Shown piece by piece: positions 26,837 through 30,502 of a DNA stretch of 31,228 bases. Below the pieces are notes generated by a model. The model had not been told where the DNA came from. It searched no databases and saw only the letters and a list, made by a program, of their open reading frames with translations. Location of the stretch: positions 1 to 31,228 of IMG/VR virus record IMGVR_UViG_3300035034_000256; one strand, given 5' to 3'. The number at the start of each line of letters is the position of its first letter. Within the stretch, counting starts at the first letter, position 1. Both the position numbers and the translations under genes were made by a program. This DNA is from a virus.

Positions 26837-26911
26837 TCCTTTATCCAATCTATGAAACTATTATACAGTATCATTAAGCAATTGTCAAGGACTTTCTTTA
26901 TTTGGTGGGCC
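26837..26911. repeat. 75-bp direct repeat, copy 1 (promoter plus tRNA-Leu 3' end)
   Basis: It is identical to 27282-27356 except at one base (26900 A, 27345 G). Each copy contains a full sigma70 promoter and the 3' end of a tRNA-Leu gene, so a promoter-tRNA module has been duplicated or converted. Confidence 0.95.
26860..26888 (-). promoter_or_regulatory. consensus sigma70 promoter (repeat copy 1)
   Basis: TTGACA (26883-26888) and TATAAT (26860-26865) are 17 bp apart on the minus strand, upstream of the 57-residue gene. Confidence 0.92.
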
Positions 26912-27281: not shown

Positions 27282-27356
27282 TCCTTTATCCAATCTATGA
27301 AACTATTATACAGTATCATTAAGCAATTGTCAAGGACTTTCTTTGTTTGGTGGGCC
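27282..27356. repeat. 75-bp direct repeat, copy 2 (promoter plus tRNA-Leu 3' end)
   Basis: It matches 26837-26911 at 74 of 75 bases. The copies lie 445 bp apart and each abuts a tRNA-Leu gene. Confidence 0.95.
27305..27333 (-). promoter_or_regulatory. consensus sigma70 promoter (repeat copy 2)
   Basis: TTGACA (27328-27333) and TATAAT (27305-27310) are 17 bp apart on the minus strand. It transcribes tRNA-Glu, the spacer and tRNA-Leu(UAA). Confidence 0.92.
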
Positions 27357-27430
27357 AGGAGGGACTCGAACCCTCAAAGACCTTCGGTCTAAACGAAGTA
27401 GCTGTGCCAATTTGCATTAGTCACCGGCCC
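27348..27430 (-). tRNA. tRNA-Leu (anticodon UAG), unusual arms
   Basis: The acceptor is GGGCCGG/CTGGCCC, A73, with CCA encoded. The anticodon loop TTTAGAC is on CTTCG/CGAAG, and the T-arm is GAGGG-TTCGAGT-CCCTC. The variable region is about 6 nt (GTCTTT), not a class II arm. The extra length lies in the D-arm region (ACTAATGCAAATTGGCACAG). Confidence 0.85.
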
Positions 27431-28753: not shown

Positions 28754-28759
28754 AAGACT

Positions 28760-28788
28760 ATTATACGCCTTTCAAAGGGAAAAGTCAA
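28760..28788 (-). promoter_or_regulatory. sigma70 promoter of the large RNA
   Basis: TTGACT (28783-28788) and TATAAT (28760-28765) are 17 bp apart on the minus strand. The sequence around it (AGACTATTATACGCCTTTCA) is repeated at the SprT-gene promoter. No gene start follows for 850 nt, so its direct product is RNA. Confidence 0.9.
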
Positions 28789-28795
28789 GAACTTT

Positions 28796-28981
28796 TTAAA
28801 TCTCTACATAACCCCAGTCCATTCGATCCCAAGCTATAGACCTCATTATTTCGTCCTTATACTCTTCTTCCATTCCATTCCATTCTTCGTCAGTAAGACC
28901 CAAGTCTTCTTTAGTGTCTACTACTTGCTCGTACTGAGACTGGGAGTTAGCTCCAGAGTCTAGCCATACTTTAATTTTCAT
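28796..28981 (-). CDS. small conserved acidic phage protein (DUF7167-like)
   Basis: The 61-residue product has KVWLDSGANSQSQYEQVVDT, LGLTDEEWNGMEEEYKDEIM and DWGYVEI. I recognise this pattern from small phage proteins of unknown role grouped as DUF7167. The ATG follows the SprT-like stop with AAGG upstream, so the two genes form one unit under the promoter at 29506. Confidence 0.7.
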   Translation of the reverse strand: MKIKVWLDSGANSQSQYEQVVDTKEDLGLTDEEWNGMEEEYKDEIMRSIAWDRMDWGYVEI

Positions 28982-28986
28982 TTTAG

Positions 28987-29475
28987 TTACCTTACTTGCT
29001 TCAATACCAGTTTACCCAGTGTTTCTTTGTTTCCTGGAATGTATGCGCGGCTCCAGTCTCTGCGAGGCTTTCTCAGGTACTTATACGCTACGCTACCATC
29101 TAAAGTGTTGATTACGTGCCACTTGTACTTACTATCTAGCAAAGCTTTCTGGTTATCGCAGTAGTTTCCAAGTCTAGAGCCTGTTCCACCCATAGCTTTG
29201 TGTAGCTTGACCCAATTAGGCCCGTGGCTCTCTGCTTCTTTGGTTAGTGCGTGTGCCACTTCGTGGGTAATGGTCTCCATAACGTCTTTAATAGAGGATG
29301 CGCTGGCAAGAGGCTCGGATAATACTATTGTCTTTGTAGCGTGGGTACACATACCGAAACAAGCCAAAGCTCTGCTATACTTGAATACCCAACCATCTGC
29401 TATAAGGTCTTTACCAGTTAATTTCTTGCCTATTTTTACAGCTTCTTGGAACATATCTAAGTGTAGTTGCTTCAT
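28987..29475 (-). CDS. SprT-like zinc metalloprotease
   Basis: The 162-residue product has the zinc motif H71-E72-V-A-H75 in ETITHEVAHAL. The surrounding layout (ATKTIVLSEPL before it; HGPNWVKLHKAMGG after it) is that of SprT/Spartan family proteases. In eukaryotes Spartan cleaves DNA-protein crosslinks. Phage roles are unknown. It has a strong promoter and stands alone with one small gene inside the tRNA region. The C-terminus is basic (KPRRDWSRAYIPG), consistent with nucleic-acid contact. Confidence 0.88.
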   Translation of the reverse strand: MKQLHLDMFQEAVKIGKKLTGKDLIADGWVFKYSRALACFGMCTHATKTIVLSEPLASASSIKDVMETITHEVAHALTKEAESHGPNWVKLHKAMGGTGSRLGNYCDNQKALLDSKYKWHVINTLDGSVAYKYLRKPRRDWSRAYIPGNKETLGKLVLKQVR

Positions 29476-29534: not shown

Positions 29535-29546
29535 GAACTACTTTAT

Positions 29547-29624
29547 TGGGCTGAGTGCCTAGGATTCGAACCTAGATTGAACCATATTTATTTAAGGTCC
29601 GCGAAAACCCTCGTTATCACTCAA
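29547..29624 (-). pseudogene. aberrant tRNA-like gene with a 12-nt anticodon-arm loop
   Basis: A canonical T-arm (CTAGG-TTCGAAT-CCTAG) and acceptor TTGAGTG/CACTCAG followed by C and CCA are present. The anticodon arm reads GGACC-TTAAATAAATAT-GGTTC, a 12-nt loop instead of 7, and the D-arm is poor. The acceptor register is also off by one relative to the T-stem. It may be a decayed tRNA or an odd functional one. It resembles the anticodon arm of the Leu(UAA) gene with an insertion. No amino acid can be assigned. Confidence 0.5.
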
Positions 29625-29629
29625 TTGTT

Positions 29630-29704
29630 TGGCTCCAGTACTAGGAATCGAACCTAGCTATGGCAAGTTAACAGCTTGCTCCCACACCTTGCGGGTCCAC
29701 TGGA
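29630..29704 (-). tRNA. tRNA-Asn (anticodon GUU)
   Basis: The acceptor is TCCAGTG/TACTGGA, G73 fits Asn, and CCA is encoded. The anticodon loop CTGTTAA is on GCAAG/CTTGC, and the T-arm is CTAGG-TTCGATT-CCTAG. Confidence 0.95.
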
Positions 29705-29711
29705 ATTAAAT

Positions 29712-29786
29712 TGGTGCATTCTGATGGTATCGAACCACCCTCTCGTGCTCTTCAGGCACACGCTAATCCGTCTCAGCTAAGAATGC
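29712..29786 (-). tRNA. tRNA-Phe (anticodon GAA)
   Basis: The acceptor is GCATTCT/AGAATGC, discriminator A, with CCA encoded. The anticodon loop CTGAAGA is on TGTGC/GCACG. It starts 4 nt after the last hairpin of the tmRNA coding piece. Confidence 0.95.
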
Positions 29787-29848
29787 TTAGTTCCAGGGTG
29801 TTAACCCTGGAATGACTGGTTCTGTTGCCAAGTCCAGTCAAACTCCGA

Positions 29849-29890
29849 TCAGGCTGCTATAGCCACATCATATTCAGCGTCATTGGCTGC
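29849..29890 (-). CDS. tmRNA tag reading frame, AANDAEYDVAIAA-stop
   Basis: From the likely resume codon GCA (29890-29888) the frame reads AANDAEYDVAIAA and ends at TGA (29851-29849). It starts with the conserved A-N-D and ends with small hydrophobic residues, as ClpXP/ClpAP-recognised tags do. It differs from the E. coli tag ANDENYALAA and has the AAND start I recall from alphaproteobacterial two-piece tmRNAs. Whether GCA or the next GCC is the resume codon is uncertain by one residue. Confidence 0.88.
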   Translation of the reverse strand, partial: AANDAEYDVAIAA

Positions 29891-29966
29891 ATTTACATTT
29901 TTAGTCATTGAGTGACTAGCTATTCTCCACAATGCTATCTTCGGCTGTCGAATCCATATCAGCCCC

Positions 29967-29996
29967 CTCAAAAGTAGCCTACTACTAAGTTACTTT
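29967..29996 (-). other. intervening segment joining tmRNA acceptor and coding pieces
   Basis: Thirty nt lie between the CCA of the acceptor piece and G1 of the coding piece. AAAGTA at its start can pair with TACTTT near its end, so it would loop out and be removed by tRNA-processing enzymes, leaving two chains. Confidence 0.8.
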
Positions 29997-30043
29997 TGGT
30001 GGAGCTGGCGGGAGTTGAACCCGCGTCCATCCGCTCTTTACAT

Positions 30044-30057
30044 TGCTTCATCGAATT
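30044..30057. repeat. 14-bp direct repeat, copy at the tmRNA acceptor boundary
   Basis: TGCTTCATCG AATT (forward) here equals 30237-30250. The two copies bracket the 55-residue gene exactly. They may mark an insertion or a duplicated processing site. Confidence 0.85.
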
Positions 30058-30223
30058 ACGTATAGCCACTGAAAAGGCAGCTATTGATCTTAAATACTAC
30101 TTCTGCAAGTGTAGCATCAATACATTTGCCTGTTGAATCAAAGGCTCTCTTAGCTAATTCGTCACGTAAGTGCTTTAGATCATATGGTAGATTACTATTA
30201 ATTATCTTTGCATTACCCATCAT
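30056..30223 (-). CDS. small hypothetical protein between tRNA-Ala and tmRNA
   Basis: The 55-residue product starts MMGNAKIINSNLPYDLKHLR with AAGGAG 4 nt before the ATG. A longer frame to 30244 lacks a ribosome site. It is soluble, with Lys and Asp residues and no recognised motif. It lies between 14-bp direct repeats, and its stop codon overlaps the repeat at the start of the tmRNA acceptor region. It might be an insertion into the RNA gene unit or a regulator of it. Confidence 0.6.
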   Translation of the reverse strand: MMGNAKIINSNLPYDLKHLRDELAKRAFDSTGKCIDATLAEVVFKINSCLFSGYT

Positions 30224-30236
30224 TATACTCCTTAGC

Positions 30237-30250
30237 TGCTTCATCGAATT
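30237..30250. repeat. 14-bp direct repeat, copy next to tRNA-Ala
   Basis: It is identical to 30044-30057 and ends 1 bp from the CCA end of tRNA-Ala. Confidence 0.85.
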
Positions 30251-30251
30251 T

Positions 30252-30326
30252 TGGTGGACACGCAGGGACTTGAACCCTATCCTTCTCCTTGCAAGGGAGA
30301 CGCATTCCCAGTTATGCTAGCGGCCC
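30252..30326 (-). tRNA. tRNA-Ala (anticodon UGC) with a disrupted inner acceptor stem
   Basis: The anticodon loop CTTGCAA is on TCTCC/GGAGA, the D-arm is GCAT/ATGC, the T-loop TTCAAGT, A73 is present and CCA is encoded. The acceptor GGGCCGC/CGTGTCC pairs at positions 1-4, with the G3-U70 identity pair intact, but mismatches at 5, 6 and 7. It may be decaying or repaired after transcription. Confidence 0.85.
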
Positions 30327-30435: not shown

Positions 30436-30462
30436 TGGTGGTTTCCTTACTTTTGAATAATT

Positions 30463-30491
30463 ATTATACAGGATTAACAAGCAGTTGTCAA
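30463..30491 (-). promoter_or_regulatory. consensus sigma70 promoter of the tRNA-Ala/tmRNA unit
   Basis: TTGACA (30486-30491) and TATAAT (30463-30468) are 17 bp apart on the minus strand, followed by the leader, the two hairpins and then tRNA-Ala. Confidence 0.92.
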
Positions 30492-30502
30492 GCATTATTT
30501 TT

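Follow-up and report, generated by a model that had tools for sequence, protein, structure and literature searches.

Results

Genomic context and structure of the tmRNA gene

The stretch of DNA analysed here (the window) is a virus record of 31,228 bases, i.e. a 31-kb fragment. Its genes correspond to the T5 replication block, with a D5-like regulator, a split NAD ligase, a DnaB-like helicase, a primase and a polymerase in order; an SbcC/D-like nuclease and ribonucleotide reductase are also encoded. The polymerase is 45% identical to those of Aeromonas and Proteus Demerecviridae and 66-69% identical to those of a large contig set in the viral collection, where the gene order is kept. Judged on the replication block of this 31-kb record, the window is a fragment of a T5-like phage.

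On the minus strand, which also carries the tRNAs, the tRNA-like elements, the small ORF, the candidate promoter and the 13-mer described below, a permuted tmRNA (ssrA) gene is assigned to 29787..30075 by ARAGORN, RF04321 and RF01850, the 5' end of the acceptor RNA being approximate. The initial annotation had put this gene at 29791-30050; the location holds, and the extent is slightly larger, about 30075 to 29787. ARAGORN predicts tRNA-Ala (UGC) upstream in the same direction (30256..30326), tRNA-Phe abutting the tmRNA (29712..29786) and tRNA-Asn downstream (29630..29704). With T5-like replication genes in the window and tRNAs on both sides, the proposed setting, a T5-like tRNA cluster, is borne out. 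A small ORF of 62 aa (30056..30244) has its stop within the tmRNA acceptor region, and the family search gave no match for it. Upstream of tRNA-Ala and the tmRNA there is a candidate sigma-70-like promoter, TTGACA-17-TATAAT (30463..30491), recognised by consensus match only (12/12), and a terminator-like stem (30382-30357) lies between it and tRNA-Ala.

Some further elements of the cluster were noticed. A promoter-like block is repeated at 26856-26899, 27301-27344, 28756-28799 and 30459-30502, ahead of tRNA-cluster genes, and two of the copies are identical. The region 27350-27430 is tRNA-like and, judging by its anticodon UAG, specific for Leu; it has an acceptor, a T-arm and CCA, its D-arm is odd, and both ARAGORN and RF00005 miss it. 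At 29545-29624 there is a degenerate tRNA-like element whose acceptor and T-arm are good and whose anticodon loop has 12 nt; it has no Rfam match. The 13-mer AATTCGATGAAGC occurs twice, at 30045-30057 in the acceptor piece and at 30238-30250 just past the 3' end of tRNA-Ala, and is perhaps a trace of recombination between two alanine-accepting genes.

The acceptor piece comes first in the gene (29997..30075; RF04321, fold). It contains the 5' strands of helix 2, the T-arm, the 3' strand of the acceptor stem, A73 and the encoded CCA that ends at 29997. It is followed by the intervening segment and then by the coding piece (29791..29966; RF04321, fold), which starts with G1 at 29966 and carries the 5' strand of the acceptor stem, the D-loop-like motif UGGAUUCGAC, the 3' strands of helix 2, the tag frame and the 3' stems. 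The intervening segment (29967..29996) is exactly 30 nt long, as initially described, and has the hairpin AAAGUAacuuaguaguaggcUACUUU with UGAG at its end, directly before G1; folding of the segment with its flanks gives a hairpin at -10.2 kcal/mol. Similarly built intervening segments, AAAGYA...UGCUUUUGAU, are present in permuted tmRNAs of viral contigs. The acceptor stem GGGGCUG/CAGCUCC, read directly from the sequence, contains the predicted G3-U70 pair and is followed by A73, so that the alanine identity set (G3-U70, A73, CCA) is complete. The T-loop is UUCAACU (TTCAACT in DNA) and the D-loop-like part is UGGAUUCGAC. The UUCGAC motif, the T-loop, the inter-piece helix and the tag frame are each found.

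The tag frame (29849..29890; ARAGORN, fold analysis) is open, in line with the initial proposal, and reads GCA GCC AAU GAC GCU GAA UAU GAU GUG GCU AUA GCA GCC UGA, i.e. AANDAEYDVAIAA*. Before it stands UAAAU, a feature shared with the Rfam consensus of both the permuted and the beta family. There are 13 codons as against the usual 10, and an extra GCA leads; translation may resume at the second codon of the tag. The tag ends AIAA, and both the AAND..Y motif and the terminal AA are kept. In E. coli these are the parts of the tag that are read by SspB and ClpX. After the tag follow a stem-loop GACUGG..UUGGCAACAGAA..CCAGUC (29814..29839; sequence and fold analysis), whose motif TTGGCAACAGAA is also found in eight viral-contig tmRNAs and one bacterial tmRNA, and a last hairpin of 9 pairs (29791..29812) with no U-run after it. 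The terminator scan found no terminator at this hairpin (29812-29791). The end of the coding piece is separated from the first base of tRNA-Phe by 4 nt (CUAA).

Model and fold support for a permuted tmRNA

ARAGORN calls a permuted tmRNA (tmRNA*) at 29758-30089 on the minus strand with the tag AANDAEYDVAIAA*. The initial annotation had named in advance a covariance-model search in the permuted order as the check that could overturn its reading. This search gave a significant hit to RF04321 tmRNA_permuted at 29849-30057 (103.2 bits, E 2.5e-19, model positions 1-213 complete), the curated cut-off being 47 bits. The full-length hit and the ARAGORN call agree with the suggested reversed order of the tmRNA 3' and 5' ends. 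The window gene shares with RF04321 the piece order, the G3-U70 acceptor stem, the T-arm, UUCGAC, helix 2 and the tag frame after UAAAU. The other family models gave a mixed picture: alpha_tmRNA RF01849 scores 62.3 bits, over its curated cut-off of 50, and beta_tmRNA RF01850 (29787-30134) scores 73.8 bits, under its curated cut-off of 84. It is important to note that the alpha-type loops (G55/A18) are absent from the window despite the score over the alpha cut-off; the T-loop TTCAACT and the D-loop TGGATTCGAC are of the non-alpha kind.

When 150 Pseudomonadota genomes were sampled, the RF04321 matches fell into two score groups, 113-162 bits and up to 65 bits. The upper group is taken as permuted genes and the lower one as probable cross-matches to ordinary one-piece tmRNAs. 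The 103.2 bits of the window lie between the two groups, closer to the upper.

The two pieces were also folded as separate strands, with no covariance model and with 200 shuffles as control. The fold energy is -82.7 kcal/mol as compared to -68.8 +/- 4.4 for the shuffles, none of the 200 being as low. The tRNA-like domain is recovered, with acceptor stem, T-arm and an inter-piece helix of seven pairs (30046-30040/29935-29929). Specifically, the 5' strand of this helix 2 is GCAAUGU (30040..30046) and the 3' strand is GCAUUGU (29929..29935), and the claimed pairing between the pieces is thus obtained independently of the family models. The association energy of the two pieces alone is not unusual as compared to shuffles (z -0.9). 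Since two independent programs, the model-free fold and the comparison with relatives agree, sequence and modelling support the presence of a permuted (two-piece-type) tmRNA gene in the tRNA cluster of a T5-like phage.

Relatives of the window and of its tmRNA

Among 49 viral records related by polymerase, permuted tmRNA is found in two, which is a lower bound as most of these records are fragments. The two are IMGVR_UViG_3300034374_009254 (G015, 101 kb) and IMGVR_UViG_3300030104_006971 (G034, 48.6 kb). Both resemble the window in replication-gene order and in the signature ATTCG[AT]TGAAG (acceptor piece) plus TGGAGAAT (coding piece), which also occurs in L107, L111, L114, L128, L150, L155 and L173 of the viral collection. 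They differ from it in a G55/A18-type elbow, long intervening segments and the tags ANDDIYALAA (G015) and ANDDVYSLAA (G034). The long intervening segment of the G015 tmRNA (rows L085 / L214) contains a Shine-Dalgarno-like AAGGAG and an ORF, extending into the 5' tRNA-like part, for a short, strongly basic peptide.

The scarcity of the gene, together with the gain and loss of genes in tRNA clusters, could mean that the tmRNA is a neutral, unused passenger acquired with the tRNA cluster. We regard this as quite unlikely: every identity element is intact despite deep divergence, and the 101-kb relative G015 has the tmRNA yet no tRNA matched by the tRNA model. The window tmRNA is at most 64% identical to every other tmRNA collected, and with all identity elements intact at such a distance, selection rather than a decaying copy is indicated.

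No permuted tmRNA over the cut-off was found in 11 Demerecviridae genomes, and one-piece tmRNA gave there only weak matches, none above cut-off. Of these weak matches, the one that was inspected is the tRNA-Ala-like 71-nt element of Vibrio phages described below, and another coincides with a tRNA-Ala of ARAGORN. Pseudomonas phage pf16, which has SspB, was matched by neither the permuted nor the one-piece model. The neighbour gene 28987-29475 led to no relatives in the viral contigs.

The question of bacterial origin was addressed by pattern scans and a tree. An initial scan of bacterial genomes with an exact pattern had no hit, and a looser one found 10, nine in Gallionellaceae or Nitrosomonadales and one in Herbaspirillum. 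Betaproteobacteria (Gallionellaceae, Herbaspirillum) have the bacterial forms closest to the window, in which the intervening segment is short and CCA is encoded, as would be expected if a bacterial tmRNA had been captured recently or bacterial DNA had been joined during assembly. Phage tRNAs flank the tmRNA on both sides on the same strand, however, and the window has the signature ATTCG.TGAAG / GTGGAGAAT in common with the viral rows L128, L107 and L111, which are also its nearest rows in the tree. Recent capture was rejected because these scans and the tree showed no close bacterial relative, and we consider an origin by capture or misassembly highly improbable. In the tree of 125 permuted tmRNAs the window groups with L128, L107, L111 and kin (SH-aLRT 94), the nearest rows by path being viral contigs; as deep branches are weak and end branches long, this placement is a lead only.

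The elbow of the tRNA-like domain is U55/G18 in the window. In G015, G034, Brevundimonas phage Bajun and Pelagibacter phage Mosig, position 55 is G and position 18 is changed; the tmRNAs of alphaproteobacteria combine A18 with a T-loop that reads GGCGGTA or close to it. Comparison of these sequences suggests that the elbow differences may reflect hosts of different classes.

A separate observation concerns a 71-nt element in Vibrio phages, at 1501-1571 of both L293 (vB_ValS_X1, MT442039.1 42890-42960) and L294 (D120, OZ195707.1). Neither ARAGORN nor RF00005 calls it a tRNA. Its match to the one-piece tmRNA model reaches both ends of the model (30.2 bits, E 6e-11), and a hairpin stands in place of the 312-nt middle; the 7-nt loop of this hairpin holds UGC (Ala). 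It has G3-U70 and A73, lacks a D-stem, and differs between L293 and L294 by one compensatory change. Judged by its sequence, it may be a D-armless tRNA-Ala or a hybrid between tmRNA and tRNA-Ala. About 290 Vibrio phage records contain the element, which is unannotated or a hypothetical protein among the matches listed.

Discussion

Phage-encoded permuted tmRNAs as such are not new. In the 2022 survey that describes phage Melnitz, 402 tmRNA-bearing phages were found among 18,146 genomes; of 133 unique structures, 53 were two-piece according to ARAGORN, with 50 originating in marine or aquatic samples (PMC9004378). The tmRNA database holds 79 phage sequences (PMC11915505). From viral contigs, our two pattern scans collected 35 + 77 = 112 stretches, nearly all of them tmRNA* according to ARAGORN. 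Cultured carriers are BUCT628 (Acinetobacter), Marzo and relatives (Stenotrophomonas, Menderavirus), X1 (Xanthomonas) and Bajun (Brevundimonas). The initial annotation, which listed alphaproteobacteria, cyanobacteria and some betaproteobacteria as carriers, was therefore incomplete, as marine and aquatic phages (PMC9004378) and cultured phages belong there too. Against this background, a T5-like carrier is less surprising.

The cultured carriers just named have the same gene form as the window (RF04321 76.6-123.9 bits), and in Marzo the tmRNA likewise lies in a tRNA cluster, immediately ahead of a tRNA. BUCT628, Marzo, X1 and Bajun belong to other phage groups and have differing tags and intervening segments. 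Mosig (MT647606) also encodes a permuted tmRNA (ARAGORN tmRNA*), but with a G55/A18-type elbow and the ARAGORN tag GEDNFALAA, and Melnitz, unlike the window, was reported with a glutamine riboswitch; both represent another phage group and another gene neighbourhood. In a limited literature search we found no report of tmRNA in a T5-like phage or in Demerecviridae. The novelty here lies mainly in the T5-like carrier.

We think it likely that the window encodes an intact permuted tmRNA of a T5-like phage that works in ribosome rescue with host RNase P, AlaRS and SmpB. The open tag frame with conserved ends, the tRNAs on both sides, the T5-like genes in conserved order and the occurrence of such an RNA in G015 and G034, both T5-like relatives, all speak for a working tmRNA. 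The gene probably shares a transcript with the tRNA genes next to it, given their order and strand and the lack of a terminator. Bacterial two-piece tmRNAs serve as the model for cutting, alanine charging and use of SmpB alike. On this analogy, host RNase P would make two cuts, one at G1, where the coding piece starts, and one where the abutting tRNA-Phe has its 5' end; the acceptor piece would be trimmed back to the encoded CCA by tRNA 3' processing of the host. The position of tRNA-Phe, 4 nt past the last hairpin, suggests that the same RNase P cut that matures tRNA-Phe also creates the 3' end of the coding piece. Acinetobacter, Stenotrophomonas and Xanthomonas are genera with one-piece tmRNA. 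Permuted tmRNAs in phages of such genera make processing by ordinary host tRNA enzymes plausible.

According to pairing in silico, the two pieces would be held together via the acceptor stem and helix 2. Host AlaRS would charge the acceptor piece via G3-U70, and host SmpB would bring the charged tmRNA to ribosomes stalled on broken mRNA, where translation would resume at GCA and the tag be added. Tagged products should go to ClpXP, as the tag ends AIAA and keeps the AAND..Y that is read by SspB. The likely benefit for the phage is that ribosomes are recycled in an infected cell with cut mRNA.

The tag, which is unlike all others collected in this comparison, could also fit a different role, namely that of a charged, SmpB-binding competitor of host tmRNA that lowers or redirects host quality control, as proposed for mycobacteriophage DS6A. 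The DS6A tmRNA consists of the tRNA-like domain alone, and in E. coli such molecules act as inhibitors of the endogenous tmRNA (PMC11915505, PMC4131195). The DS6A form has no coding domain, whereas that of the window is complete, with an open tag frame and degron ends that a pure decoy would not need. This completeness speaks against a decoy role, which we consider improbable here.

A more speculative reading goes beyond ribosome rescue as such. In an uncultured T5-like lineage, the elbow of the permuted tmRNA may vary as if fitted or exchanged per host class, and the 3' end of the window coding piece may come from tRNA-Phe processing; we offer this combination tentatively and hold it to be rather doubtful.

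Based on these results, T5-like phages join the carriers of permuted tmRNA. The window has the full identity elements and a distinct degradation tag beside a large tRNA set, and the phage may supply decoding and rescue tools together. If this is true, the system would provide a test of why lytic phages have their own rescue RNA. BUCT628 and Marzo, which are cultured in laboratory hosts and have permuted genes, make this question testable without culturing the window virus.
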